64,000 nucleotides of DNA, from contig NZ_AP026867.1 of NCBI RefSeq assembly GCF_026000115.1, positions 7,355,001 through 7,419,000 of the forward strand, given 5' to 3'. Every line of letters begins with the position of its first letter. Position 1 is the first letter of the stretch. The notes beneath the pieces were generated by a model. The model was not told the origin of the DNA and ran no database searches. It saw only the letters and a program-made list of their open reading frames with translations. Both the position numbers and the translations under genes were made by a program. Below, in pieces: positions 38,114 to 53,742 of the stretch. The stretch comes from Aureispira anguillae. GTDB taxonomy: Bacteria > Bacteroidota > Bacteroidia > Chitinophagales > Saprospiraceae.

Positions 38114-41100
38114 ATGAAAACCTTAATAGCTCCCATTCGATTTATCATTGTGCTGTTGATAATAGGTATAGGGCTACCAACCCATGCTAAAGATATTGTC
38201 TACACTGGAATGAAAAATAAGGTGGACTTGGCCGTCTCTAAAGTAATTCATGTGGTAGATCCCAGGTATGGAGATCCAGGAGAAGGAGTAGATTATGTAC
38301 GAAGATATACGGCTGTGCCAGCATTGGTTTATAATAGAAACCAAAAAACAGATATTGCAGGCAATGTTTGGTCTTATGAAATAGAATATGATTTATTGTA
38401 CAATGATCCTGTTTTGATGCAAGGCATTGTAAAACAAGGAACTTTGTTTATTGAACACAATAACACAGAGGGAATTTATGAAGCTATAGGAATCCATGAA
38501 AGCGTAGTGGGGGATGTACAGCTAAAAATTAGAACCATAACTCCTGTTGGTAATGTTCCAGATGATATTCATTTGGAATTAAGACTGAAGGTAGAACGGT
38601 ATGATTATCTAGATGATGCAGATCCCATTACCAAAAACGAGATGAGTTTGGTTAGCTTTGCTAATAATCAGGCTGAAATATCTTGGCAGGTTGTGGATGG
38701 AGCAGAGTATTATGAGGTAGAGTGGGTGTATTGGGATGCGCAACACAATACCACGACTTCTAATTTAGCTTCAACAGATTTAGAAACTGTTTTTGAAAAG
38801 GCGGTTGGTATCGAAACGAAATCCAATTCGTATCAATTTGATTTGTTTTATCCTGAGGGATTGGTTTATGTTAGGGTTCGTCCTGTTGGGCGTTATATTC
38901 GTGGTGTTAATGGAGATTATAACCATTTAAAATATGGTCCGTGGGTGCAAGGGGTAGATCCTAATACCAATAGTTTTGTTATTCTCCTTTTTCATGGATT
39001 TGAATCCGATAGAATTTGGCAAGTACAGCGAAGTTTTGCAGAAGATGCTAAGAGCAAACAAGTGGTGCAATACTTTGATGAGGGAATGAGAGGGAGACAA
39101 ACCTTAACGAATTTAAGTAGCGATGATTTGACGATTGTAGCAGAAAATATCTATGATGCTGAAGGGCGTCCTTCTTTATCTACGTTGCCTGTTCCCGTTA
39201 AAAGTTTAATTGGAAAAAATCCCCTGCAATTTGGTGCAGGAACGGATGACCCAACAAGAGCAGAAGGCGGACTGATTTCAACCGCAGCCATTGATTACAC
39301 GTATAAGGATTTTGATAAAATAGATCATGCAGACGCATTATCTAAAGTAGATGCTCAGGGTAAAAAGCATGTCAGTGCTATTTATTATAGCGCAGAAAAT
39401 CCCTTTAATAATCACATCCATAGAGATTATATTCCAGATGCAGAAGATTTTCCCATTACGCAGGTGAAATTTCTAAATGATGCAACAGGACGAGTTGCTA
39501 GACAGTCTGGCGTAGGTGCTTTTTATCAATTGGGTTCCAATCATGAAACAAAATATTATTATGCAAATCCTAATCATAGTGAATTAAGAAGGTTATTCGG
39601 AAAGAACGTGGGAGATGAAAAGCATTACCGCAAAAATTATGTGGTAGATGCGAATGGCCAAATTTCGGTTAGTTATATCGATCAAGCAGGGCAAACGATT
39701 GCAACGGCTTTGGCAGGAAAAAGTCCTGATAATGTTAACACATTAACAAGTGAGCAGGGGAATACCAATACGATTGCTTCTTCTATTATGGGAAAAAATG
39801 TAGTGGATAGAACGGCTAAGACTAGCGTATTGTCTCATGCTATTTTTTGCGATGAAGCACCTAGAACGGATAAATTCTCTTATACGCTAACAGGGGATGG
39901 GATCTATATGCCAGGAGCTACGACATCGATTTGTATTGGTTGTGAATACGAAGTAAATATTAGTTTAATTGACGAAGGTGGAAATGCAATTCCTCTAAGC
40001 TTGATTGCTCCAACGAATACTGGAGGAGGCAATACCTCTCCACTTTACAATGGAATTACAACGCAAGTCATTAATGGGGAAATTGTCGTGCATTATAATA
40101 GTTTGTATGACAATACCTGCGTGCCAATTCCTACGGTCGAAGTGGATTTTGAAGCAGTCTTACAAAATGTCGGGAGTTATCAGCTTAAAAAAATCGTAAA
40201 GGTGGTAGAGCCTGATCCCAATCAATTAATTACTCACCTAGAAAATAGTGGAGTGTTAGCCGATAAGCAAACGTTTATCGATCAATATGTTGTTGATAAT
40301 TGGGATCCCAATGAATGTGAATATTGTAATGATGCAATTCGACTAAGGCTTTGTGAACAAATTGCTAGTGCCGAATATCCAGGTTATGCAGATGCAAAAA
40401 TTACAGATCCTGAGTACCAAATCTACTTTGATCGAGTACAATATTATTTGTTGAATACAAGTACTTACCCTGATTGCGATGATTTGCGTAGGATAGAGAG
40501 CTTGGCTGCTTCTTTAAAAACAGAATGCCATGCTAAGTTGGAATTGATGAAACAGCAAATCGCTCCTGCAGGAGATCCTACAACAGGATCACAAGGTTGC
40601 TTATATACTGAATTGGGATTTTGGGAACATGTTTACGATAATAGCAACCAACTTTCGTTAGAACGTTATGATGCTAATGGTCATGTGGTTACTGAAACCT
40701 TTAGCAGCAGAAGTGACTTTACTACCTTTATTCAAGATCAAAATAATTGGCAAGATCATTTTGTAGATCATCCAGATATTATATCAAAACACCCCGAATA
40801 CTGTGCGTACGAAGTTGCTTGTATCAGTGAGGTTGCCTTAAAAAGTCGTCGTTTTGATTTTGAACTAGCGAGCCAAAAAACTTGGGCAGATGCCGTTAGT
40901 TTTGGAGCTAATTTGCAGACTCCACAAACGGTAACTACAGAGCAGTTTGCCTCAATTATAGCCATGGATCCGTTTTTTGTAGCTTATCCCAATTACTCTA
41001 CGGATATGTCTAGCCGTTTGTCCAATTATTGTACCGATAATTATACCAATAATCCTCCTCATCCTACAGGGGTAAACGGTTGTGGTAGTGGTTGTTCAGA

Positions 41101-44100
41101 TGTGATTTGTTATATTAATAACATCTTGGGAGATCCTGCGCAATATGTCTCTACTAATCATAGTACGACCATTAATTCTCCTGATATAACTCCTTTGTCT
41201 GACGAAGATAAGTGGATGTTTTTTAGAGGTATTTATGCGGCTGAAAAAGCGAAATTGCAACAGCACCTTATTGACCATACTACGGGGTGTAATACTGGTT
41301 TCCCTTATACAGGAACAACAACCTGTGAGCCTATTATTAGTGCGGATGATACGCAGGATTTTATGGATGACAATGGAGGAGGTGATCCTTCTGATTTGAC
41401 AGATGTACAAGCAGTAGGAGCTAATGTAAACCAAGATAATTGTACGGCTATTTGTGAAGGCAATGCTCGACGTTGGGTCAACCAATTGTGCCCAGATTTG
41501 GAGGAAACAAATTCGCTAAATTATATACACCTAGTGAAAGAGTTTACAGATTTTTGTAAAGGGCATTGTGGAGCAGATGGAGATAATCCAATGGGCTATC
41601 TTTTTGAAGAATATTTAGACTCTACTTCTTCTACTTATGCTTTAGATCCTAATTTACCTACTTTTAATCAGGATTTAGCCAATGCACAAAACCGCTTGGA
41701 TTGGTTGATGAATCATGTGCCATCTTATTGCGGTAATGATCTAGTTAATAATCGTTTGCCTGCTGAGGTAGATGTTGTTTTTGCTCATAAGACAGATGTT
41801 TATGAGTGGAGTAGTGTTTATTCTTCTGGAGGAGAAGAACTAGAACCTATGTGTAAAGACGATATTATATGTGCTTTTGATTTACTAAGACAAAGTAGTA
41901 TTTTTCCAACTAAATATACAGATATTAATGCTAGTTGCCCTAGTTCTAATAACTTTTATATGCCATCACCCAATATATTAAGTTACTATTTTAGATATGT
42001 ATTGCCAACACAATCTGCTCCTAATTGCAATGATTATACTAATGTTGATTTAGGCTATTTTGAGAGCTCTAGTTTTGTTCTTCAATATCTTTGTGAAGAG
42101 ATAAAACAGCATAATTATTATATAAAATTCAAGACTGCTACTCCTTCCTCATTCTCTACGATGACTTTTTCATTGAAGGATATTCAAACAGGGGCAGCAA
42201 TAGATCCATTAACAATACAAAGTATAGGAAATTATAATAGTACAACTAATACAATAAATCTTACAGTTAAAGAAAATTGCACATGGAATCCTCCTTTATA
42301 TCTAGTTTCTAGTGCTGTAAATCAAACGATTAGTTGTTCTGATATGGTAGCGAGTTCTATCGGGGGAACACAGCAGATTGATGCAGAAGTTAAAATCATA
42401 ACTAGTTTCGGTGAATTAGGAAATGTGTCTACTAATTGTACTAGTTGTAAAGGAGGATGGGGACTAAAAAAGAACCAATTAACCATCAACTTAGACACCG
42501 TCAGAATACAATGTGAAGAACAGCAACGAGCTGAATTAACCCGAAAGGCAGAAAGTGCCTATGATAAATATTTAGAAAAGAAATTAAAAATACTGACCAG
42601 TGGAGAATCCTGTATGGCATTCACAGAAAGCATGACCACAGAATATACCACAACAGAGCATCATTACACCTTGTATTATTACGATCAAGCAGGAAATTTG
42701 ATTCAAACCATTCCACCTGCTGCCGTAGTTCCATTGCCAACCAATCACTTTGATGGGACAACAGCAGGTTCTACGAGAGGGACTTGGGACGGAACAGATC
42801 CTAGTCATGATTATGAAATGACAACAACCTATGCCTATAATACGTTAGGGCAAGTGGTCAAGCAGACCTCTCCAGATGGCGGAATGACGGAGTTTTGGTA
42901 CGATTATGCGCAACGTTTGCGCTTCTCTCAAAATGCTAGACAACTAGCAGCAGGAGGGCAATATGCTTATACTAAATTTGATGCGCAAGGAAGAACGGTT
43001 GAAGTTGGGCGTTTAGATGGTCATGGAGTGCTTAGTGCTTGGGATCTAAATAAATCGACCTTCCCTGAAGCAACCTTAGCAGGAGTACACGAACGGATCA
43101 TTACAGAATACGAAGAAGCAAGCTTTAGCCCAATTAGTCAAGATAATTTAAGAGGGCGAGTCGCTAGAACCTATAACGATCATATTGCTACTTATTATGA
43201 TTATGATGTACATGGGAATGTAAAACGATTACACCACCAAATTAGCGGTTTAGGAGCTTCAGAAATCGCCTACGATTATGATCTAATCACGGGGAATGTA
43301 AAAGAAGTTGCCTTTATGAAAGGGACAAAAGACCAATTCTTTCATCGATATACCTATGATGCCGACAATCGATTAACACATACCCAGACCAGTAAGAATG
43401 GCTATATCTGGGACTTAGATGCCAAATATTTTTATTATGCGCATGGTCCTTTAGCAAGGGTAGAGTTGGGGCAAGATAAGGTACAAGGATTAGACTATGT
43501 ATATAACCTTCAAGGATGGATTAAGGGCGTTAACAATACAACGAGTGAAAGTGATATGGGGCTAGATGGTTTTGTGGCAACTGGCATTGCAACTGGGAAT
43601 ACCATTCCTTCAATTGCCAATAAATGGTTTGGGAAGGATGAAGCAGCTTATTCTTTAGGTTATCATAGGGCAGATTATCAACCTATTGGTACAGGAACTA
43701 ATCTAGGCATATTCGATCATTCTAATACAGCGGCATTTAATAATGATATAAAAGGAACGAATGCAACTAAGGGGCTCTACAATGGAAATATTGCTTTTAT
43801 GATTAGCCATATTCCACAACTAGCGCAAGCGAATCCTTTGACCCATGCAACACAGGCAATGGTTTATCAATATGATGCCTTGCATCGTATCACGAATTCA
43901 GAATCTTATGCTTATGTTAACGGCTGGAATAAAAATGGTTTGAGTAATGCCTATCGGACGGAGTATACTTATGATGGAAATGGTAATCTTCAAACCCTTG
44001 ATCGTCATACGCTAGAGAATAGTACGAGTACTTCGAAACATATTGATGCTTTAACGTACCATTATGGTAGTGGAAATTTAAAAAATAGATTAGAATCTAT

Positions 44101-45661
44101 TACAGATCCTTCTGCGGTTACTGCAGGAATCAATGATGTAGGAGCTGCCTCTTATACTTATGATGAAATTGGGAATTTAAAAACGGATGGAAATAATACC
44201 ATTGAATGGAATTTACAAAATAAAGTTTCTTCTGTAGACAATGCCAATTACGATATTATCTATACCTATGATGTTGGCGGCAATCGTTTAGGTAAATCCG
44301 TTACTCCTAAGGGAGGAACTAGTCCAACTCAAACAACTTTTTATGTTAGAGATGCTAGTGGGAATATTATGGGAACGTATATCGTAGAAAATAATACTAA
44401 AAAATTAGAGGAAACGCCGATTTACGGCTCAAGTCGTTTGGGAATTCATCAATATGATGTATCTTTAATGCCATTCAATGTACCTAGTATTACAGCACCT
44501 GAATTGATGAATTCAACTTTAGGAACAATACTTGGAGTAGATCAGGCAGGAAATGCAACTCGTGGAAACAAGTTTTACGAAATTAGTAATCATTTAGGGA
44601 ATGTATTAGTGACAGTGAGTGATCAAAAGCTAGGTGAGGTGACGACTATCGGTCAAACTACAGCGGAAGCTTATAAAGCACAAGTGCAATCGGCTCAGGA
44701 CTATTATCCATTTGGCTGGGAAATGCCTGGTAGATCGTTCAACTCGCAAAACTATCGCTTTGGCTTTAATGGGAAAGAAAATGACCGCCATTGGGGAGAC
44801 CAATTGATCCAAGACTATGGCTTCCGTCTTTATAATCCTGCTATTGGGAAGTTTTTGTCTGTTGATCCTTTGAGTCAAGCATACCCGTTTTATACTCCGT
44901 ATCAATTTGCAGGGAATAAGCCTATTTGGGCTGTCGATCTTGATGGCTTAGAGCCTCAAATAAAAACAAAAATTTTTTATGATTATGCCCCTTTACCTAA
45001 TAATACTGCTCCTAGAGATATTCATGATTTTGGGAATACGAGACATGATGTGTCTGGAAGGACTTTGAAACCTCATCCTAAATCAGGGGAGAAAAGATTT
45101 TTTTCAATAAATTATAATAAAAAAAAGAATAAATTTGATGTTAAAGTTTACATTGAAGTTAGAATAAATGCTGGGTTAAATCCATCATGTACAATGTGTG
45201 ATTTGAATGGGAGTAATCCAGGGTTATCAGAAGAAGTCTTAGCACATGAAGAAGGGCATGTGGAGCAATGGAAACGGGCTTATAATTCTAAGATAACAAT
45301 AGAGTATAATGGTAAAAAATATAGTGGATTTATAGATGAAGTTATTACCAATGCTGAAAACGATATAAAGGCAGGTCTTCCTCAAAAATTTAAATCAGAG
45401 GAAGATATGAAAAAAGCTCAGAATAAATATGAAATAGGTGTTGGGCAGGTAATAAATAAAGCTCTAAACGCTATATTTGAGAGAAGAGAAGAGTTAATGG
45501 CTAAAGATCAGACTGGAAAACCAGATGCAGAGATAGATGCAAATAATTATGCTGATAAAGAACTGAAAAATAGTAGGAATGGAAAAGGTCTAGAGTATGC
45601 AAATGGAAAAAAGAGAGCTACTTACAGGGGGAAATCTGTAGATTTAGGAGTTAAAAAATAA
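38114..45661 (+). CDS. RHS-repeat polymorphic toxin with HExxH metallopeptidase C-terminus
   Basis: This 2515-residue protein has a signal peptide (MKTLIAPIRFIIVLLIIGIG, to about 25). The N-terminal third resembles DUF6443-type domains (VQYFDEGMRGRQT near 320). A Cys-rich stretch follows at about 740-1140. YD/RHS repeats run from about 1570 (TTYAYNTLGQVVKQTSPDGG) to 2190. The RHS-associated core is intact: YYPFGWEMPGRSF, GFNGKENDRHWGD, YGFRLYNPAIGKFLSVDPLS and YTPYQFAGNKPIWAVDLDGL. The core's last motif, DLDGL (D2275-L2279), is where RHS cores self-cleave. After it come about 236 residues, a separate C-terminal domain with H2378-E-E-G-H2382, the HExxH zinc-peptidase motif; E2473 in AEIDANNYADKEL is a candidate third ligand. 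No PAAR or T6SS domain is seen, so export is Sec-type. The next gene, 6 bp on, is the likely immunity gene. Confidence 0.85.
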   Translation: MKTLIAPIRFIIVLLIIGIGLPTHAKDIVYTGMKNKVDLAVSKVIHVVDPRYGDPGEGVDYVRRYTAVPALVYNRNQKTDIAGNVWSYEIEYDLLYNDPVLMQGIVKQGTLFIEHNNTEGIYEAIGIHESVVGDVQLKIRTITPVGNVPDDIHLELRLKVERYDYLDDADPITKNEMSLVSFANNQAEISWQVVDGAEYYEVEWVYWDAQHNTTTSNLASTDLETVFEKAVGIETKSNSYQFDLFYPEGLVYVRVRPVGRYIRGVNGDYNHLKYGPWVQGVDPNTNSFVILLFHGFESDRIWQVQRSFAEDAKSKQVVQYFDEGMRGRQTLTNLSSDDLTIVAENIYDAEGRPSLSTLPVPVKSLIGKNPLQFGAGTDDPTRAEGGLISTAAIDYTYKDFDKIDHADALSKVDAQGKKHVSAIYYSAENPFNNHIHRDYIPDAEDFPITQVKFLNDATGRVARQSGVGAFYQLGSNHETKYYYANPNHSELRRLFGKNVGDEKHYRKNYVVDANGQISVSYIDQAGQTIATALAGKSPDNVNTLTSEQGNTNTIASSIMGKNVVDRTAKTSVLSHAIFCDEAPRTDKFSYTLTGDGIYMPGATTSICIGCEYEVNISLIDEGGNAIPLSLIAPTNTGGGNTSPLYNGITTQVINGEIVVHYNSLYDNTCVPIPTVEVDFEAVLQNVGSYQLKKIVKVVEPDPNQLITHLENSGVLADKQTFIDQYVVDNWDPNECEYCNDAIRLRLCEQIASAEYPGYADAKITDPEYQIYFDRVQYYLLNTSTYPDCDDLRRIESLAASLKTECHAKLELMKQQIAPAGDPTTGSQGCLYTELGFWEHVYDNSNQLSLERYDANGHVVTETFSSRSDFTTFIQDQNNWQDHFVDHPDIISKHPEYCAYEVACISEVALKSRRFDFELASQKTWADAVSFGANLQTPQTVTTEQFASIIAMDPFFVAYPNYSTDMSSRLSNYCTDNYTNNPPHPTGVNGCGSGCSDVICYINNILGDPAQYVSTNHSTTINSPDITPLSDEDKWMFFRGIYAAEKAKLQQHLIDHTTGCNTGFPYTGTTTCEPIISADDTQDFMDDNGGGDPSDLTDVQAVGANVNQDNCTAICEGNARRWVNQLCPDLEETNSLNYIHLVKEFTDFCKGHCGADGDNPMGYLFEEYLDSTSSTYALDPNLPTFNQDLANAQNRLDWLMNHVPSYCGNDLVNNRLPAEVDVVFAHKTDVYEWSSVYSSGGEELEPMCKDDIICAFDLLRQSSIFPTKYTDINASCPSSNNFYMPSPNILSYYFRYVLPTQSAPNCNDYTNVDLGYFESSSFVLQYLCEEIKQHNYYIKFKTATPSSFSTMTFSLKDIQTGAAIDPLTIQSIGNYNSTTNTINLTVKENCTWNPPLYLVSSAVNQTISCSDMVASSIGGTQQIDAEVKIITSFGELGNVSTNCTSCKGGWGLKKNQLTINLDTVRIQCEEQQRAELTRKAESAYDKYLEKKLKILTSGESCMAFTESMTTEYTTTEHHYTLYYYDQAGNLIQTIPPAAVVPLPTNHFDGTTAGSTRGTWDGTDPSHDYEMTTTYAYNTLGQVVKQTSPDGGMTEFWYDYAQRLRFSQNARQLAAGGQYAYTKFDAQGRTVEVGRLDGHGVLSAWDLNKSTFPEATLAGVHERIITEYEEASFSPISQDNLRGRVARTYNDHIATYYDYDVHGNVKRLHHQISGLGASEIAYDYDLITGNVKEVAFMKGTKDQFFHRYTYDADNRLTHTQTSKNGYIWDLDAKYFYYAHGPLARVELGQDKVQGLDYVYNLQGWIKGVNNTTSESDMGLDGFVATGIATGNTIPSIANKWFGKDEAAYSLGYHRADYQPIGTGTNLGIFDHSNTAAFNNDIKGTNATKGLYNGNIAFMISHIPQLAQANPLTHATQAMVYQYDALHRITNSESYAYVNGWNKNGLSNAYRTEYTYDGNGNLQTLDRHTLENSTSTSKHIDALTYHYGSGNLKNRLESITDPSAVTAGINDVGAASYTYDEIGNLKTDGNNTIEWNLQNKVSSVDNANYDIIYTYDVGGNRLGKSVTPKGGTSPTQTTFYVRDASGNIMGTYIVENNTKKLEETPIYGSSRLGIHQYDVSLMPFNVPSITAPELMNSTLGTILGVDQAGNATRGNKFYEISNHLGNVLVTVSDQKLGEVTTIGQTTAEAYKAQVQSAQDYYPFGWEMPGRSFNSQNYRFGFNGKENDRHWGDQLIQDYGFRLYNPAIGKFLSVDPLSQAYPFYTPYQFAGNKPIWAVDLDGLEPQIKTKIFYDYAPLPNNTAPRDIHDFGNTRHDVSGRTLKPHPKSGEKRFFSINYNKKKNKFDVKVYIEVRINAGLNPSCTMCDLNGSNPGLSEEVLAHEEGHVEQWKRAYNSKITIEYNGKKYSGFIDEVITNAENDIKAGLPQKFKSEEDMKKAQNKYEIGVGQVINKALNAIFERREELMAKDQTGKPDAEIDANNYADKELKNSRNGKGLEYANGKKRATYRGKSVDLGVKK

Positions 45662-45667
45662 AATAAA

Positions 45668-46141
45668 ATGGATAAAATAAGGATTGTATTTTTTTTTTTA
45701 TTAGTTGTCTTCTCTTCATGCTTTACAAGAAATAATATATTATTTAATGAAGATAGTTTTAACGTTAATATAGAAGAAGAGTTTATATTTATTCGAGCAG
45801 ATTCTATTAATAAGCTTCTTGAATTAAAAAAGAAACCAGCTTTTTTAATGAATCCTTATTTTGATTATGATTGTCATGGTTTATGGCCAAGTATGAGGCA
45901 TCAAACTTCTTTTAGAGTTAAAATAATTAATGCTGTAACAAATAAAAAAGCACTTGAATATATTGTAAATTTGGAATCATTGGAGTTAGATATATTACCC
46001 CTTCCTGATACAACAGAAATAATATCTATCCATAGAGTTAGAATACCATTTTGCAATTTTAGTTATAGAACTTTGGCTAAGTATAGATTGGAAGAACTAA
46101 AAAATTTAACTAAAGAAGATCTTCTTCCTCAACAAGACTAA
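45668..46141 (+). CDS. Small lipoprotein, candidate immunity protein
   Basis: This is a 157-residue protein with a lipoprotein signal (MDKIRIVFFFLLVVFSSC, Cys18). It starts 6 bases after the RHS toxin stop, the classical place for an immunity gene. I do not recognise its family. The mature part includes DCHGLWPSMRHQTSFRVKII and VRIPFCNFSYRTLAKYRL with two Cys (about residues 66 and 132). Local DNA is more AT-rich than the RHS core and continuous in style with the toxin domain, as expected if toxin and immunity were acquired together. A membrane-tethered periplasm-facing protein would meet a metallopeptidase that acts in the envelope. Immunity is inferred from position and type only. Confidence 0.65.
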   Translation: MDKIRIVFFFLLVVFSSCFTRNNILFNEDSFNVNIEEEFIFIRADSINKLLELKKKPAFLMNPYFDYDCHGLWPSMRHQTSFRVKIINAVTNKKALEYIVNLESLELDILPLPDTTEIISIHRVRIPFCNFSYRTLAKYRLEELKNLTKEDLLPQQD

Positions 46142-46697: not shown

Positions 46698-47969
46698 TTA
46701 ATTTTTTAAAACATCTAATAATCCAGCAAAAATACGTTCTAGTAAGGTGTATTCTTTCGTTCTAACAGCAACAACAGCGCCCATTTTTTGCTGCTTTGGA
46801 ATGGAAAACCCATAGTTCGTGGTCCAATTTTGTGGAAGTTTTAGAATGATTTCATATTTATCTTCTGTAGGAATTCGAGCAACTTTATAGACGACAGCAT
46901 CTAGTGTTCCATATTCTGTAGAAGGATAATTATTGAAATAGACCATGGCTTTTTGACCAAGCGAAATCTTACCAATACCTCGAGCTTCCATGGTTGCTTT
47001 TAGAAATGATTCTTTTTCTTGTATTAATGGAATTATTGTTATAAAAGGTGTTGCATTGGTCACTTGACTCCCTTCTTGAACGGCATTATTCATAACAATT
47101 GTTCCCGTAGAAGGAGCATATATAATATATTTTTCTTTCCATTGTTCAACAGCGGTTCTTAACGCCTCCTTTTTTTGTGCAAATGTCTTTTTTAAAGAAA
47201 AGAAAAGGTCGTGACGTTGTTTTTTTGATTCAGGAATCTGGACTTCTAATTGCTGTGTTCTTATACGATTAGAAATAATAGCAGCCTCCATTCTGTGAAG
47301 TTCTCGTTCACCTTGCAAATAGTTGTTCTCTTTTTGTTCAAATTCAGACTGGCTGATGGAGCCATTAGCGACCAATGTTTTATAACGATCGAGATCTTTT
47401 TCAATATTTTTTAATTCTTTTTCAAACACTTCTTTTTGCTTTTTTAAAGAAGTATTAAGAATTTTATTTTGGCTAATTTCTTTGCGAATTGCGCTTATTT
47501 TTTCATCTGTAATATCACTCTTATTGGCATCTTTTATTTGTAAATCAAGGAGTGAAAGTTCATGGTAGAGTGTGTTTAATTCGCCCAATTCCTTAGACAA
47601 CAGCTCTGTATTAACGATTGATTGATTGGTTTGTTGTAGTAGGGTATCCAATTGTAAAACAGCATTCCAATCCGCTGTCGATTCAAGGACAAGAAGTGGG
47701 ATGTTATATTGAACCGTGTCATTCTCCTGAACTAACAATGCATGTACCGTTCCCCCTCTTTGTGTATATACATCAACAGGAGGGTGATCAATATAAGTAG
47801 TTGCCTCAGCATTTAAAACATCAGGATAATGGATGGTAGCAGTTATGCCTAAAACAACAATAAGAAAAACGGCAATTACTGTAATTCCCCAATAGGTTAA
47901 CCAACCAGGGGGATTTCCCATGGCTTGTTCTACTAATACAAATTCTGATGATGATGTGTTCTCTGGCAT
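46698..47969 (-). CDS. HlyD-family membrane fusion protein of peptide exporter
   Basis: This 423-residue protein has an N-terminal cytoplasmic tail (about 1-20), one transmembrane span (about 22-46, WLTYWGITVIAVFLIVVLGI) and a periplasmic HlyD-type body. It shows a lipoyl-like segment (VDVYTQRGGTVHALLVQENDTV near 66-87), a long coiled-coil hairpin (about 110-270), then VIYAPSTGTIVMNNAVQEGS near 280 and a beta domain. It is the adaptor that joins the inner-membrane ABC exporter to an outer-membrane channel. It starts 2 bases after the exporter gene stop, so the pair is coupled. A TolC-like channel is not in the window. Together they export the graspetide. Confidence 0.92.
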   Translation of the reverse strand: MPENTSSSEFVLVEQAMGNPPGWLTYWGITVIAVFLIVVLGITATIHYPDVLNAEATTYIDHPPVDVYTQRGGTVHALLVQENDTVQYNIPLLVLESTADWNAVLQLDTLLQQTNQSIVNTELLSKELGELNTLYHELSLLDLQIKDANKSDITDEKISAIRKEISQNKILNTSLKKQKEVFEKELKNIEKDLDRYKTLVANGSISQSEFEQKENNYLQGERELHRMEAAIISNRIRTQQLEVQIPESKKQRHDLFFSLKKTFAQKKEALRTAVEQWKEKYIIYAPSTGTIVMNNAVQEGSQVTNATPFITIIPLIQEKESFLKATMEARGIGKISLGQKAMVYFNNYPSTEYGTLDAVVYKVARIPTEDKYEIILKLPQNWTTNYGFSIPKQQKMGAVVAVRTKEYTLLERIFAGLLDVLKN

Positions 47970-47971
47970 AT

Positions 47972-50182
47972 TTATCCTACATTTGCTCCAACTTGTTCAA
48001 CATCAAGCTGATTCTGAACCAATCTATAATATTCTCCCTTTTTATTTAAAAGGGTTGAATGAGTTCCTTGTTCAACAATTTTTCCATTATCTAGCACTAC
48101 AATTTGATCTGCATTTATAATCGTACTCAAACGATGGGCAACAACAACAACTGTTTTAGAGGTTAAAAAGTGATTTAAACTTTCTACAATTTTGCGCTCA
48201 TTGGTAGCGTCTAACGCATTTGTTGCCTCATCCAAGAACAGCACATCAGGATTTTTGTACACAGCTCTAGCAATTAAAATACGTTGTTTTTGCCCTTGAG
48301 AAATACCATTTCCTTGTGCACCAATCACTGTATTATAACCTAAAGGAAGGGTCTCTATTAAATCTCCAATGTTAGCAACTTCAATCGCATGATGTAGTTT
48401 TTGATAATCAATAGAAGTATCACTCTCTGCTATATTATGTGCAATAGTGTCCGAAAAAATAAATCCATCTTGCATTACCGTGCCACATAAACTTCTCCAG
48501 TATCGTTTATCAATAGATGACAATGGATTTTTTCCAACTAATATTTTCCCTTTTAAGGGTTCGTAAAAACCAAGTAATAGTTTCAATAAAGTTGTTTTTC
48601 CACTTCCACTTGCTCCCACAATTGCGGTTGTTTTGCCTTTGGGAATGGTTAAGTTGATATTTTGTAATATGGGGTTTGAAATGGGGGTGTATCCAAAGGA
48701 TAAATTCTCTAATTCTAGATTAATCTGATCAGGCAATTGCTTAATGAGCTTAATATTTGATGCATTTTCATCTTCTTGAGATGTGATTTCGCCCATTCTT
48801 TCCAAACTAATTTTAGCATCTTGTGCAGAGTATACAAAACCTATAAATTGTTGGAAGGGGGCATTCAATTGTCCTACAATATACTGGACAGCAACCATCA
48901 TCCCCAAGGTCATTTCTCCGTTAATAACAGCACTAGCAGCAATAAACGAAATTAGAATATCCTTAAGTCTAGAAAACAACAATCCTCCAAACTCTTGATA
49001 TTGGCGCAAGGCTAACGATTTGGTTTGAACACTAAATAGTTTAGCTTGGATTTCAACCCATTTCCAACGTCTTTTCCGCTCACTTCCTTGTAGTTTTATC
49101 TCTTGAACGCCATTGATAATTTCATACAAGGTTTGTTGATTTTCAGATGACTGTTGAAACGCCATATAGTCCAATTCCTTTCGCCATTTTAAAAATCCCC
49201 AAATCCACAATAAATAGAGGGTAGAGAATGCAAAAAAGACAACAAATATAAGCCTATTGTACATAAATAGAATGACAGAAAAAACCATAACGGTAACAAT
49301 AGAGAACAGCATGTTTAAAATAGATCCTGTCAAAAAGGATTCTACTCGATGATTATCACTAATTCTCTGGTATAAATCACCTATATTTTTAGTGTCAAAA
49401 AAGCCCAAGGGCAATTGCATCATTTTTGCCAAAAAATCAGCAATAAGATTTACATTGACTCGTCGTCCGATATTAAGCGCAATCCAAGATTGAATAAACT
49501 GTACAAAAACTTGACTAACCGACAAGACCAATTGAGCAATCAAGATCAACCAAACAAAACCTATATTTTGATTATTTACCCCAACATCAATCAGCGATTG
49601 TGTCAGAAAGGGAAGCATCAACTGAAAAATTAAGCCAACCATCATTCCCAATACAAATTGAAAAATCAATTGCTTATACGGCTTAAGGTACCCCAAAAGA
49701 TACCTCCACTTAGAACGGTCTTCTTGTAGCCCCTCTTCTTGATAAAAAGCAGGGGTTGCTTCTAAGCCAAGTGCAATCCCTTTTTGCCCGTTGTTAAGCC
49801 ATCCTTTTTCAAAAAAAGAACGTTTTAATTTTATCTTCCCTTCTGCTGGGTCAGCTACCCAAACATGCGTCTTAGAGATTTTATAGACAACAACAAAATG
49901 TCGCTGCTCCCAATAGGCAATACAGGGCAATGGAAACTGCAACAGCCCAGGTATTTCGCCTTCTTGTTCATAAGTTATTTTGACAGCAATGGTACGATAA
50001 CCAATGCTCTCAGCAGCTTCCGTAATTCCCAATAAAGAAACACCTTCTCTTGTAATATAACACTTCTCTCGTAAATATTGCAAGGGCAGTGATTTGCCGT
50101 CTGATTGAGCAATCATTTTAAGACAAGTTGGACCACAGTCCATTGTATCTAACTGTTTATAGAATGGGAATTTTACAGGCAT
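47972..50182 (-). CDS. Peptidase-containing ABC exporter (C39, bacteriocin type)
   Basis: This 736-residue protein has an N-terminal C39 peptidase (about 1-130). Catalytic Cys16 lies in DCGPTC, with His in WEQRHFVVVYK near 95 and Asp in WVADPAEG near 110. C39 enzymes cut leader peptides just after a double-Gly. Six membrane spans follow (about 165-450), then the ABC domain with Walker A GASGSGKTT near 530, signature ISQGQKQR near 630, Walker B DVLFLDEATNALD near 650 and switch His AHRLS. It therefore matures and exports GG-leader peptides. The two precursors at 52763 and 53354 have LRGG and VLGG leaders. The gene follows GwsS by 33 bases and precedes the HlyD gene by 2. Confidence 0.94.
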   Translation of the reverse strand: MPVKFPFYKQLDTMDCGPTCLKMIAQSDGKSLPLQYLREKCYITREGVSLLGITEAAESIGYRTIAVKITYEQEGEIPGLLQFPLPCIAYWEQRHFVVVYKISKTHVWVADPAEGKIKLKRSFFEKGWLNNGQKGIALGLEATPAFYQEEGLQEDRSKWRYLLGYLKPYKQLIFQFVLGMMVGLIFQLMLPFLTQSLIDVGVNNQNIGFVWLILIAQLVLSVSQVFVQFIQSWIALNIGRRVNVNLIADFLAKMMQLPLGFFDTKNIGDLYQRISDNHRVESFLTGSILNMLFSIVTVMVFSVILFMYNRLIFVVFFAFSTLYLLWIWGFLKWRKELDYMAFQQSSENQQTLYEIINGVQEIKLQGSERKRRWKWVEIQAKLFSVQTKSLALRQYQEFGGLLFSRLKDILISFIAASAVINGEMTLGMMVAVQYIVGQLNAPFQQFIGFVYSAQDAKISLERMGEITSQEDENASNIKLIKQLPDQINLELENLSFGYTPISNPILQNINLTIPKGKTTAIVGASGSGKTTLLKLLLGFYEPLKGKILVGKNPLSSIDKRYWRSLCGTVMQDGFIFSDTIAHNIAESDTSIDYQKLHHAIEVANIGDLIETLPLGYNTVIGAQGNGISQGQKQRILIARAVYKNPDVLFLDEATNALDATNERKIVESLNHFLTSKTVVVVAHRLSTIINADQIVVLDNGKIVEQGTHSTLLNKKGEYYRLVQNQLDVEQVGANVG

Positions 50183-50215
50183 ATTTATACGATAAAGATA
50201 ATTCTAATGTTGAAA

Positions 50216-50950
50216 CTAATAGTCTACTTCACGCTGACAAATGGAGTCATAACGATAGTTACCCTCTATTTGATACACTTCTCGTTGATCCAAGCAGGTC
50301 AATCGGAAAGCACATGCTTTGCAATTTTCAATGTTAGACTTAGGGATATTAAATTGTTCATGGTCTATGAATTGGATATGATTTCCATTCACGGCTAAGG
50401 TATCTCTAGAATAATGATATAAGTTATTTTCCTTGGAAATAAAAATAGCTTTAGGGCTGCTAAGGAATATAGGTTCATAGGATGTTTTATCGGCTTTTAT
50501 TCTCTTTCTCTGGATAACTTTATACACGGAAAAGTAATTATCATATAGTGTTCTATCGTAAGCGTCAGAAATAGAAATCGTAATTCCAAAATGATAGATT
50601 CGCTTATTAATCCAATCAATTAATGCTTTGACACGATCTAAGGGAATGACCTCTTCAGGACAAATAACTCTTACATTCATGTAAGCAGTTCCATCTTTGA
50701 TATAGTCATCCAAATAACTAAAATCGCTTAGGGCATCACTAGCTTTTGACAAACGAATATCCAGAATCTCTTTATGATAGGCATCAATATCTGGCGTAAT
50801 AAAATTGGATAAATTTTCCTCTAGTTCTACATGCTCTTCAAGTTGCTCAAGTTGAACGTTAGAAATAACTCTAAGTTCGTATGTTCCTAAATTAATCAAG
50901 GCACTCTTTTGTTTGCCTTTGACAATATATATGGCTTCTTTTCTTTTCAT
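50216..50950 (-). CDS. gwsS: Divergent SPASM-domain peptide maturase (GwsS-like)
   Basis: This protein is 244 residues from the ATG at 50950; the frame reaches 50971, which would overlap the preceding gene. The N-terminus (MKRKEAIYIVKGKQKSALIN) resembles the VKGAKRSIICDL opening of GwsS proteins, and the C-terminus carries a SPASM-like Cys cluster: CKACAFRLTCLDQ, then a late Cys. Usual members have a fourth clustered Cys where this one has Gln, and are longer (about 350 residues), so this is a shortened, divergent form. It has no radical-SAM CxxxCxxC motif. In grasp-with-spasm systems this protein partners the ATP-grasp ligase; its chemistry is not established. It lies between the 64-residue ORF and the exporter. 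Confidence 0.72.
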   Translation of the reverse strand: MKRKEAIYIVKGKQKSALINLGTYELRVISNVQLEQLEEHVELEENLSNFITPDIDAYHKEILDIRLSKASDALSDFSYLDDYIKDGTAYMNVRVICPEEVIPLDRVKALIDWINKRIYHFGITISISDAYDRTLYDNYFSVYKVIQRKRIKADKTSYEPIFLSSPKAIFISKENNLYHYSRDTLAVNGNHIQFIDHEQFNIPKSNIENCKACAFRLTCLDQREVYQIEGNYRYDSICQREVDY

Positions 50951-50954
50951 ATTC

Positions 50955-51149
50955 TTAAGGTAATAAAGCACGTTCTGTATATCGAACGCCTAAAGCTCTA
51001 TTGCTAAATTTAGGTGAATAGATGGTCTTTTTGGCTCTTAGTTCATGGTTGTTTTTGGCATCTTCAAAATTCAATTTTTTAAACATTAGAGGAAGCCTTC
51101 CAGTATTGACTAAGTTGTTGTATTTTTTTACGATTTCTTCTTGGTTCAT
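50955..51149 (-). CDS. Small unknown protein of the grasp-with-spasm cluster
   Basis: This 64-residue protein starts 5 bases after the GwsG stop and ends 4 bases before the chosen GwsS start, so it is part of the same tightly packed transcript. It is basic and predicted helical (KKYNNLVNTGRLPLMFKKLN near the start, KKTIYSPKFSNRALGVRY near the end). It has no GG leader, signal peptide or Cys, so it is not an obvious third precursor. It may be an accessory recognition or chaperone protein for the maturases. No family recognised. Real gene rather than chance frame because of the tight spacing. Confidence 0.6.
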   Translation of the reverse strand: MNQEEIVKKYNNLVNTGRLPLMFKKLNFEDAKNNHELRAKKTIYSPKFSNRALGVRYTERALLP

Positions 51150-51154
51150 AATGA

Positions 51155-52183
51155 CTATTTTAATACCAGTGAAGGGGTTATTTTTTTAGATTTTTTAAGC
51201 AACATTTTAAAAATTTGCTTATGTATAGAGGTACTTAAAAAAGAGGCATAATACTCAACTACTCCATCTGGATTAATTTCAAGAAAAACATAACCTCCAT
51301 CTGTGCTTTTAATAATATCCATTGTGCACAGATCCAATTTAAAATGCTTACACAGTCGAATAACTTTTTCTTTTACCTTAGAATCTAAATGATACTCTTC
51401 ATTCTTGATTTGATTGTTTCTATAAGCTTGTTTAATATCTGTAGTTGGAATGTCTCCACCTTCATAATATTGCTTGATACAGTATAATTCATCTCCTACC
51501 AGAATGCATTTCAGTTCATATTTTGATTCAATACGCTCTTGTAGAAAAGAAGGGAAGATCATCTCTTCTGTTACACTTTGAGTATAGTCCAAATCTACAG
51601 CTGTTGTTTTGATGCTCATGATTTCATCTTGTTCAAAGAGGTATCCTAGCCCACCTACAGGCTTAGTAATTGTCGCATCATGCTTTGCAATAAAGGAGTT
51701 TAAATCTGTCATAGAATTGGACAAAAACATGGATGGGCATCTCAGCCCAAATTCATTAGCTTTGATGGTTTGAAATGGCTTGTTTCTACAAACAATATCA
51801 TAGTCGTTAACAATTGGTGTCCCTAAGTTTTGAGCAAAATGTAAAATTAAATCTCTTAGGTCATAAACTTCTTTTATCAACTGTTGTAGCGTAGGCTTAG
51901 GAACAATGTCTTTAAAGTTTCCAAATACTCTTCCTGATGATATAAAGTTGTTGCTAATGCGCCTTTGCCAAATCAATGTAAACTCACTCAAATAATGTGT
52001 TTTATCGTTTAGTTTAAATGCAATATCTTTCTCTGTGACGGTAATGGGTATATCATTTATTTTATTAGGCAATAAATCCTCTAAATTTATTCGAACAACC
52101 TCAATACCCTCTGCTTGGCAACACAATTGAGTTTTCTCAATTAATGTCTCTGTAAAATGTGTACTTAGGAATAAAAATTTCAA
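51155..52183 (-). CDS. gwsG: Graspetide ATP-grasp ligase (GwsG)
   Basis: This is a 342-residue enzyme of the ATP-grasp type that forms omega-ester or omega-amide links between Ser/Thr/Lys and Asp/Glu side chains in ribosomal peptides. Features: an N-terminal sub-domain with IWQRRISNN near 90, the ATP-binding lysine segment ITKPVGGLGYLFEQ near 165, the grasp segment SFLQERIESKYELKCILVGD near 210-230, and the metal-binding end DIIKSTDGGYVFLEINPDG near 285-303. The start is TTG (52181-52183); no ATG occurs between it and the upstream in-frame stop (52205-52207), so translation may be modest. Downstream come the 64-residue ORF, GwsS, and the exporter. It would modify the precursors at 52763 and 53354. 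Family call good, substrate inferred. Confidence 0.85.
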   Translation of the reverse strand: MKFLFLSTHFTETLIEKTQLCCQAEGIEVVRINLEDLLPNKINDIPITVTEKDIAFKLNDKTHYLSEFTLIWQRRISNNFISSGRVFGNFKDIVPKPTLQQLIKEVYDLRDLILHFAQNLGTPIVNDYDIVCRNKPFQTIKANEFGLRCPSMFLSNSMTDLNSFIAKHDATITKPVGGLGYLFEQDEIMSIKTTAVDLDYTQSVTEEMIFPSFLQERIESKYELKCILVGDELYCIKQYYEGGDIPTTDIKQAYRNNQIKNEEYHLDSKVKEKVIRLCKHFKLDLCTMDIIKSTDGGYVFLEINPDGVVEYYASFLSTSIHKQIFKMLLKKSKKITPSLVLK

Positions 52184-52762
52184 GTTGTTAATTTTTAAGG
52201 TGAACTAATAGACATTATCACGAACTGCGCAGCACTCATGAAATAATAGAGTTGTATAGTCGAAAAAGCAAGATTTTTTTGAAGGGCGAGGAAAAGCATG
52301 AGCAATAGCGAACCGAGCCCTGCGAGCTCATAAGCATTAGCGCACTAACTGCGAGGGCTTGTGCTAGTAGCACAAAGGATATAGCCCTCATAGCTGTAAG
52401 CTATGAAGTAGAGCATTTGACGAAGCCAATCAGAAAAAGATGTTTTTGTAGGCATACCATTTCATTATTTATTTCCTTTGGTCATGATATAGTTCATGAA
52501 CTTCGTTTCGTGATAATGTCTAATATAGCCTCTTTATATAAAAATATCTTATCAGGTAATTGTTTGCAATACATTGCGGCATGCCCATCTTTAGCACCAA
52601 ACTAAGCGGATTTATAATGAATATATTCTTAGATATTGTTCGTTACTTAACTAGTGGGGCTATTTTAGGGCACACAAAACATTACCCAATAAGATATTTC
52701 TTTTTAATAATGGCAAATAGCCTTTTTATTGAACTAATGTTTAATAAAAATCAATCAATTGT
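52184..52762. repeat. Hairpin-rich intergenic repeat between precursor and GwsG
   Basis: 579 bases without a real gene. 52205-52420 holds members of the dispersed family: gcgcagcactcatga (52227-52241, compare 4821-4835) and an ataagc-attagcgcacta word (compare 4862-4879). It contains three hairpins: gagggct/agccctc (52353-52359 with 52383-52389), gtgct/agcac (52361-52365 with 52369-52373) and atagct/agctat (52390-52395 with 52399-52404). From 52440 on I see nothing further. Confidence 0.55.
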
Positions 52763-52772
52763 TTATTGATTG
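52746..52772 (-). terminator. Possible weak terminator at precursor 1 end
   Basis: CAATCAAT (52752-52759) pairs with ATTGATTG (52765-52772), overlapping the precursor stop, with a short T run on the minus strand. It could be leaky and set the precursor-to-enzyme ratio. Confidence 0.45.
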
Positions 52773-52990
52773 TCACTGTGGCTAGAAGTACCATTGTCAT
52801 CATGGGAAGAAGTGCCATTGTCATCATGAATCGAAGTCCCATTATCATGATGATAAGAAGTACCGTTGTCGTCATGATAAGAATCTCCATTGTCTCCTTC
52901 ATTCGAAAATTCTTCACGACCTCCTCTAAGGGCATTTAATTGGTCGGACTCAATAATTTCCGCATTTTTAAACAGATCTATTTTTTTCAT
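52763..52990 (-). CDS. Graspetide precursor peptide 1
   Basis: This is a 75-residue precursor. The leader is residues 1-24 (MKKIDLFKNAEIIESDQLNA then LRGG), cut by the C39 peptidase after Gly24. The core (25-75) begins REEFSNEG and then has five 8-residue units at 33-72, each beginning DNG(T/D)S and carrying His at position 7 (for example DNGTSYHH, DNGTSIHD), ending DNQ. Ser/Thr nucleophiles and Asp acceptors alternate with regular spacing, as needed for omega-ester rings made by GwsG. The DNA repeat has a 24-bp period. It has its own promoter and a palindrome in the 5' leader, shared with precursor 2. No Cys, so rings would be ester-type only. Precursor call strong; ring pattern unknown. Confidence 0.85.
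   Translation of the reverse strand: MKKIDLFKNAEIIESDQLNALRGGREEFSNEGDNGDSYHDDNGTSYHHDNGTSIHDDNGTSSHDDNGTSSHSDNQ
52775..52894 (-). repeat. Five 24-bp units in precursor 1 core
   Basis: Codes for five 8-residue units DNG(T/D)S-x-H-x. Third codon positions and the variable codons differ between units, so the repeat is older than the perfect repeats of the beta-helix gene. Confidence 0.85.
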
Positions 52991-53051
52991 CGTATTAATT
53001 TTTAATCTGTGTGAAATTGAAATAAAATTTTATAAAAAATAACAAACATTC

Positions 53052-53063
53052 TTTTAGCTAAAA
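53052..53063. promoter_or_regulatory. Palindrome TTTTAGCTAAAA in precursor 1 leader
   Basis: A perfect 12-bp palindrome lies between the -7 box and the start codon, at the same relative place as in precursor 2. Could be an operator or an mRNA element. Confidence 0.65.
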
Positions 53064-53083
53064 TTGTACTTGTTAATGTGGTG

Positions 53084-53114
53084 CAAATTTAGCTACCTTA
53101 ACCAATGGAAACAA
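53084..53114 (-). promoter_or_regulatory. Promoter of precursor 1
   Basis: On the minus strand TTG (53114-53112), a 20-base spacer and TAAATTTG (53091-53084) match the Bacteroidota consensus and the precursor 2 promoter. Confidence 0.75.
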
Positions 53115-53280
53115 GACATAAAAACAACACTTTTATGATGTTTAAAATTGTTGTTTAAGGTTTAAAGGTTTGTTTAGTAGGTTTTTATAGTTGATGAATT
53201 AAACATATTCACCACCTCTGTTTTTATTTATGCGATTCTATGAATCGATTCATCCTCACGATCGATTAAGAGGCAATGAA

Positions 53281-53334
53281 ATAATAAAAACAAACACACC
53301 TACGGTCTGATTTTAATCTTATGCATAGGTGTGT
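53281..53334 (-). terminator. Terminator of precursor 2
   Basis: ACACACCTA (53294-53302) pairs with TAGGTGTGT (53326-53334), followed on the minus strand by a T-rich tract (53281-53293). It lies about 20 bases past the stop codon and suggests precursor 2 is mainly a short transcript of its own. Confidence 0.75.
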
Positions 53335-53353
53335 CCATGATTATTAATTACCT

Positions 53354-53587
53354 TTAGTTTCTTATTAGATTTCCATTGTCTGAATGGTCAGAATCTCCAT
53401 TGTCTGCGTAATCAGAATCTCCTTGATCATGATGATTGGAATCTCCTGTGTCTGCATAGTCAGAATCCCCTTCGTCATTATAATCTGAGTCTCCCATGTC
53501 AGAAGAAATTGAACGTCCTCCAAGAACCATACTTAATTGATTTGAATTAATCGTTTCAGCATTCTGAAACAAATCCATTTTTTTCAT
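53354..53587 (-). CDS. Graspetide precursor peptide 2
   Basis: This is a 77-residue precursor. Leader residues 1-24 (MKKMDLFQNAETINSNQLSM then VLGG) align without gaps to precursor 1; shared positions include MKK-DLF, NAE, QL and GG. The core (25-77) starts RSISSD and has five 8-residue units at 31-70 of the form xGDSDYxD (for example EGDSDYAD, QGDSDYAD), then NGNLIRN. Each unit offers a Ser donor and several Asp acceptors. Unlike precursor 1 it uses Ser rather than Thr-Ser and has Tyr where precursor 1 has His. It is transcribed from a promoter that resembles that of precursor 1 and ends at a terminator, so it can be expressed apart from the biosynthetic genes. Confidence 0.85.
   Translation of the reverse strand: MKKMDLFQNAETINSNQLSMVLGGRSISSDMGDSDYNDEGDSDYADTGDSNHHDQGDSDYADNGDSDHSDNGNLIRN
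53378..53497 (-). repeat. Five 24-bp units in precursor 2 core
   Basis: Codes for five units of xGDS(D/N)-x-x-D. The period equals that of precursor 1, pointing to a common ancestor. Confidence 0.85.
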
Positions 53588-53711: not shown

Positions 53712-53742
53712 TAAATTTAACGCCCTTACTTAATGAAAACAA
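53712..53742 (-). promoter_or_regulatory. Promoter of precursor 2
   Basis: On the minus strand TTG (53742-53740), a 20-base spacer and TAAATTTA (53719-53712). The spacer length and flanks match the precursor 1 promoter. Confidence 0.7.

Follow-up and report, generated by a model that had tools for sequence, protein, structure and literature searches.

A graspetide-type gene cluster of Aureispira anguillae with two eight-residue repeat cores and a reduced SPASM-like protein, probably related to grasp-with-spasm systems

Graspetide ligases, as described in PMC13097080, phosphorylate an acidic side chain that is attacked by Ser, Thr, or Lys, and the leader is often removed by peptidase-bearing transporters. 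The closest described systems to the locus reported here are the grasp-with-spasm clusters of Bacteroidota (branch 5 in PMC8939145 and group 14 in PMC13097080), in which precursors with a GG leader stand upstream of an ATP-grasp ligase gene, a gene of the small LPL family lies directly 5′ of the gene for a SPASM protein, and a C39 exporter and an HlyD adaptor are encoded alongside. All of these features are shared by a seven-gene cluster on the minus strand (46698-53587) of the window, by which we mean the whole 64,000-nt stretch of Aureispira anguillae DNA that was analyzed (G000:C1:7355001-7419000, within a 7.79-Mb genome). Our reading, to which we give a rough probability of 0.55, is that the cluster makes two secreted repeat-core omega-ester peptides and represents a deep lineage related to grasp-with-spasm. 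The enzyme family and the gene plan are known; what distinguishes the cluster is a separate ligase lineage, a SPASM protein with one cysteine set, and an unmatched, Cys-free repeat core. An initial annotation had called the locus a complete grasp-with-spasm cluster, a label we do not retain because the ligase and the SPASM protein both score below the curated cut-offs, the ligase does not appear to group with the canonical ones on an unrooted tree, a reduced SPASM protein is encoded, and one gene had been missed. The window type also lacks a protein of ∼300 aa that, by eye, precedes several canonical ligases and is perhaps cluster 23 of PMC8939145.

Each of the two precursors carries five eight-residue units. 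Precursor B (77 aa, 53354..53587) has the leader MKKMDLFQNAETINSNQLSMVLGG, the units DMGDSDYN, DEGDSDYA, DTGDSNHH, DQGDSDYA, and DNGDSDHS, and the tail DNGNLIRN; precursor A (75 aa, 52763..52990) has the leader MKKIDLFKNAEIIESDQLNALRGG, the units DNGDSYHD, DNGTSYHH, DNGTSIHD, DNGTSSHD, and DNGTSSHS, and the tail DNQ. The initial annotation counted the units correctly but gave each core a pattern of its own; when read in one register, both are uninterrupted period-8 arrays of the single motif D1-x-G3-x-S5-x-x-x. Self-identity at a lag of eight residues is 29/43 in core A and 23/45 in core B, and 2000 shuffles never reached the observed value for either of these, nor for any of the five cores in hand. 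The other three come from two genomes of the same genus (G003 and G008, with four units each) and from the Saprospiraceae metagenome-assembled genome (MAG) MAG-108 (G351, locus L052, six units). D1, G3, and S5 are present in 24/24 units of these five precursors, where the units were gathered with the pattern D.G.S and the invariance therefore means that the uninterrupted arrays contain no in-register unit that deviates from it. The remaining positions are looser: position 4 is D, T, S, N, or E (Thr in 4/24 units), position 7 is His in 15/24, Tyr in 5, Ser in 3, and Phe in 1, and position 8 is Asp in 4/24.

Our survey comprised 102 loci, namely 20 + 80 regions fetched from ligase matches (weaker matches left out), the window, and L052, with ligase open reading frames (ORFs) in 101 of them and SPASM ORFs in 73. 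Periodicity was seen in 4/4 window-type cores versus 0/56 candidate cores that a noisy precursor filter had drawn from the other survey loci (500-shuffle test). Neither precursor is matched by an NCBIfam or Pfam model at E ≤ 0.001, the best weak matches being at 0.0098 and 0.1. The likeness to plesiocin and other hairpin graspetides lies in having several cyclized repeats in one core. Plesiocin, however, is built of TTxxxxEE repeats with two rings each, whereas the unit here is D-x-G-x-S-x-x-x and all units share one donor, and the microviridin-type core motif likewise differs. We could match the motif to no described one, which is a weak absence, as graspetide groups 1-24 were not compared and subscription journals were thinly covered. 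Those groups are reportedly defined by Ramesh et al. in 2021.

In 24/24 units, Ser5 has an Asp four residues before it (−4) and another four residues after it (+4), the donor-acceptor pairing that all of them share. Every array closes with an additional D-N after which no unit follows, so that even the last Ser5 has both. This closing D-N fits an attack of Ser5 on the Asp of the next unit, because that register needs a trailing Asp, and it would place the donor before the acceptor, as in other graspetides. One S-x-x-x-D lactone (i, i+4; 17-membered) would then form per unit, so that each peptide would carry about five of them, strung together as beads. The same order of donor and acceptor is given for rosaritide and corallotide in PMC13097080. 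Corallotide (group 15), as that source describes it, also resembles the window type in carrying five repeated motifs in one precursor and in the i, i+4 spacing of its KxxxD rings; it differs in using a Lys isopeptide and a 2-oxoglutarate oxygenase and in belonging to another phylum, while here the donor would be Ser, the cores hold no Lys, and no oxygenase is found among the cluster genes. A plesiocin-like product with several rings per unit is also conceivable, in which Thr4 and Ser5 of precursor A serve as donors and Asp8 and the following Asp1 as acceptors (TSxHDD) to give bicyclic units. In two of the five precursor A units the sequence running into the following unit is indeed TSxHDD, and in a third it is DSYHDD; with Thr4 and Asp8 each in so few units, though, such rings cannot be the common rule, and we consider this product unlikely.

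The ATP-grasp ligase (342 aa, 51155..52183) is of graspetide type and lies beside the precursors. It matches TIGR04192 with 103.2 bits (E 1.6e-29), below the curated cut-off of 230, and scores 85.1 bits against the MvdD model (cut-off 475) and 73.4 against the MvdC model (cut-off 425). All of its best PDB matches are graspetide ligases (CdnC 7mgv, E 3.4e-12; 5ig9, 1.5e-11; AMdnB, 4e-6), and it belongs to the same ATP-grasp superfamily as the microviridin and chryseoviridin ligases (MvdC/D and CdnC), with CdnC the best PDB match. K174, E216, D289, E302, and N304, to which we ascribe a role in ATP-grasp catalysis, are invariant in 4/4 aligned ligases. The ligase is read from a TTG start (52181-52183), as is that of G003 (L004:1501-1503); the MAG orthologue has ATG at the matching place.

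That the ligase most resembles ring-forming enzymes also bears on a further alternative, namely that the core is an acidic Asp/His metal-binding peptide on which the ligase forms hardly any rings or none at all, or which it modifies with some other group in a RimK-like manner. The composition of the cores is compatible with it (10 Asp and 6 His in core A, 15 Asp and 3 His in core B, no Lys or Cys in either), yet the His at position 7 is not constant while Ser5 is invariant, and we judge this somewhat less probable still than the bicyclic product.

On a quick, unrooted tree of 115 ligases, three window-type rows fall between 34 SPASM-less ligases and 78 others, with the splits around the window type supported at 96 and 83 (SH-aLRT). 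We read the SPASM-less side as microviridin-type and the other side as grasp-with-spasm; no SPASM ORF was detected in the survey loci beside the tandem ligase pairs read as microviridin-type. For the kinship with grasp-with-spasm, gene content weighs more than this tree: the order ligase, LPL, SPASM protein, exporter is found in the window as it is in grasp-with-spasm.

The small LPL-type gene (64 aa, 50955..51149) is the one that the initial annotation overlooked between the ligase and SPASM genes. PMC8939145 presents the LPL family as small proteins encoded immediately 5′ of the SPASM protein in the branch 5 loci of Bacteroidota, with a suggested PqqD-like role. The survey yielded 81 unique ligase-paired SPASM ORFs (two proteins being split into two pieces each, and near-copies such as those of G003 and G008 being counted); an ORF of 40-110 aa stands between ligase and SPASM in 73/81 of the pairs and an LPL-like motif occurs in 44/81, although some intervening ORFs are not LPL proteins (that of L045 is a piece of the SPASM protein). 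The window gene has the motif GRLPLMF and a lineage-specific end, YTERALLP, in place of the common "...KPISK". A held-out LPL hidden Markov model (HMM), built from 57 ORFs with the window type excluded, finds it at E 1.7e-4 among 3518 small ORFs, and the G008 and G003 orthologues at E 1.1e-3 and 1.4e-3; it is thus most likely a divergent LPL protein.

The SPASM-like protein (251 aa, 50216..50971, with an alternative ATG start in the 50948-50950 region) is reduced. Its sole homology match is to TIGR04193, with 15 bits (cut-off 175; E 0.013) over 27 residues. Window-type members are 237-257 aa long, compared with 268-389 aa for the other survey SPASM ORFs of at least 230 aa. Eight SPASM cysteine columns form two sets; of these, the window protein and the three orthologous proteins retain 0/4 cysteines of the first and 4/4 of the second, with C217, C220, C226, and C245, and also C104, kept in all four. 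Among the 76 ORFs of at least 230 aa (five shorter ones were dropped), both sets are complete in 50, only the second in 20, and neither in 5, and a single ORF retains 2/4 of the first set. The one-set label, with the window type set apart, changes 10 times on the ligase tree, but the starred branches force only one change. This near all-or-none loss suggests that each set would hold one [4Fe-4S] cluster; we take the two sets to be the AuxI and AuxII of anSME-type enzymes. A PDB profile search returned nothing up to E 1 for the reduced profile, and the three matches for the canonical profile (E 0.076 or worse) were taken as chance. We also considered that the loss of one cysteine set might go with Cys-free precursors. 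This idea was dropped, as Cys-free candidate cores are common beside two-set proteins (e.g., L037, L051, L060, L069, and L088) and Cys-containing cores occur beside one-set proteins (L041, L064, and L124), in a comparison made by eye and without a count on cores from the noisy filter, which missed known precursors such as window precursor A.

PMC8939145 names the SPASM protein a radical SAM maturase. The locus could be seen as an ordinary member of grasp-with-spasm (group 14, branch 5) in which the SPASM protein would act as a radical SAM enzyme and introduce a further cross-link of the carbon or thioether type, and the gene order ligase-LPL-SPASM-C39-HlyD does fit branch 5. The radical SAM motif CxxxCxxC is, however, absent from all 81 SPASM ORFs, that of the window included, and 14 canonical members contain no Pfam Radical_SAM match at E ≤ 0.01 (Pfam SPASM is found in 9/14). 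These absences, together with cysteine sets that are nearly always kept or lost as units, speak against the maturase view; the cores moreover have no Cys and the curated cut-offs are missed, which makes such an enzyme improbable here. We propose instead that the SPASM-like protein would be a one-cluster iron-sulfur partner or docking protein and, most simply, that it and the LPL protein are partners of the ligase. Rosaritide (group 21) offers a parallel, since its ligase also works with a required partner protein and a peptidase-containing exporter; according to PMC13097080, however, the partner is PpiC-type and the core is interlocked rather than repeated.

The last two genes encode a C39-peptidase ABC exporter (PCAT; 736 aa, 47972..50182) and an HlyD-type periplasmic adaptor (423 aa, 46698..47969). 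Pfam matches support both (C39 peptidase, E 3.3e-32, and ABC_tran, 3.6e-31, in the exporter; HlyD_3, 2.9e-10, in the adaptor), and together with the ligase homology they bear out the initial proposal of a GG-leader, PCAT-exported repeat-core peptide beside a ring-family ATP-grasp ligase. The exporter is 82-85% identical to those of the same-genus clusters L032, L033, L036, and L038 and 58% and 46% identical to those of the same-genus loci L034 and L049; in four of the same-genus clusters with a similar exporter, the ligase is only 23-26% identical to that of the window.

All six genes named initially have uninterrupted reading frames on the same strand, in the order and at the positions first given, and the LPL gene is a seventh. 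From ligase to HlyD the genes are tightly packed, with gaps of 5, −17, 33, and 2 nt, and the precursor genes are set apart by gaps of 363 and 579 nt. A promoter-like TTG-N20-TAAATTT lies upstream of precursor B (53713..53742, minus strand) and of precursor A (53085..53114, minus strand), and an imperfect hairpin with a T-rich run, terminator-like by eye, follows precursor B (53279..53349, minus strand). Because the precursors are separate, have promoter-like sites of their own, and B is followed by a hairpin, they may well be transcribed separately from the enzyme genes or together with them. The promoter-like pattern was picked after inspection of the sequence and has exactly two sites in the window against 1.35 expected (at least two in 35/100 shuffles), so that the position of the sites, not their number, is informative; the G003 and G008 precursors are preceded by a looser version, and no such site was found ahead of the MAG precursor. 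A pair of genes elsewhere in the window (38114-46141) looks polymorphic-toxin-like: the first encodes a 2515-aa protein that matches RHS repeats weakly (Pfam E 4.5e-5) and carries HEEGH close to its end, and the second, 6 nt beyond it, is a 157-aa ORF that matches no family.

Of the 396 genomes searched in the order, the same four (G000, G003, G008, and G351) match both the SPASM-like protein and the precursor strongly, and among 296 genomes of the phylum a strong match is found in the window's own genome alone. The precursor matches in G011 and G365 (E 0.001-0.003) fall within frames of 180 and 215 aa and are regarded as chance, and further SPASM matches in two order and eight phylum genomes cover 29-46 residues at the cysteine end only. 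An insensitive scan with two short peptide patterns, which covered 84,980 species with one genome apiece, returned two loci, those of Aureispira sp. CCB-QB1 and MAG-108. The own genome has a single ligase and two precursors (search up to E 10). The window ligase is 72% identical to those of G003 and G008 and 57% to that of the MAG, whose locus comprises genes for a precursor, the ligase, LPL, and the SPASM-like protein. A plasmid search gave only remote ligases (12 records, all <60% identity; 22-28% among the matches listed). In locus L153 (Hymenobacter canadensis plasmid NZ_CP114769.1, 85861-96739), gwsG lies on a plasmid classed as mobilizable, and ten small 144-nt genes stand in tandem ahead of it, of which nine are annotated as ComC/BlpC-leader peptides.

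Between the near-identical genomes G003 and G008 the repeat core is hypervariable. The precursors (L032:6306-6509 and L033:12802-13005) differ at 19/132 nt in the core and 0/72 in the leader, versus 60/13,817 nt in the other coding sequences (Poisson tail for the core ∼1e-22) and 0/228 nt in a canonical precursor 6.6 kb away. Differences are also somewhat more frequent in the flanking intergenic stretches (11/353 and 12/455 nt), and away from the precursor ORF no 132-nt window holds more than 11. At the D1, G3, and S5 codons the core differences are synonymous only. Within the genus (three genomes) Ser5 is encoded by TCN in 18/18 units, and in the MAG by AGY in 6/6, which indicates that Ser was kept across a codon-class switch. 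Synonymous divergence (dS) is 0.415 in the precursor versus 0.010-0.056 in the ligase, LPL, SPASM-like, C39, and HlyD genes. Exchange between units or the import of a diverged core is the likely source of the variation; an origin resembling that of diversity-generating retroelements (A-only) was rejected, as 17/19 differences are transitions and they are not confined to A. For the five other cluster genes, nonsynonymous divergence (dN) is 0.000-0.020, below dS. This is hard to reconcile with a decaying, nonfunctional cluster, as might be imagined from the lone ligase and from a SPASM protein ∼100 aa below most others with one cysteine set gone. The ligase, LPL, and SPASM-like frames are also intact in four genomes, and the four SPASM-like proteins share 88 invariant columns, so that we regard decay as very improbable.

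On our reading of two omega-ester peptides, the leader would recruit the ligase assembled with its LPL and SPASM-like partners, the ligase would phosphorylate the conserved Asp for attack by Ser5 of the preceding unit, and the C39 exporter would cleave after GG as the core is exported through HlyD. We infer the ester chemistry, the ring register, the assembly, and the cluster binding. Several observations weigh against this reading, in addition to the gathering of units by pattern. The ester rings are themselves predicted from sequence, the Asp at −4 is as conserved as that at +4 so that sequence leaves the register unsettled, and Ser5 may react in reverse with the Asp four residues before it. 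Thr4 and Asp8 of precursor A could give extra or different rings. The window-type ligase branch is very long (2.39 changes per column), and the substrate or product may therefore have changed. An hhalign comparison of the reduced and canonical SPASM proteins has a probability of 93.9, short of certainty; the MAG LPL orthologue is not significant with the held-out HMM (E 0.26); and no C39 or HlyD gene is found in the 17-kb MAG locus.

By analogy with characterized graspetides, the product would most likely be an extracellular antagonist or protease inhibitor. A broader proposal, which we put forward only tentatively, is that the window type forms a third ligase-plus-SPASM lineage whose peptides carry four to six identical S-x-x-x-D lactone beads; that the SPASM protein, in grasp-with-spasm at large as well, would be no radical enzyme but a (former) iron-sulfur docking partner able to lose one or both clusters while still serving the ligase; and that the core would be a local hot spot of sequence exchange in which the ring residues stay fixed. 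With one donor and one acceptor per unit, the cores offer a compact, regular substrate for testing what SPASM and LPL proteins do. If the rings form, such a chain of lactone beads would offer a topology for engineering.

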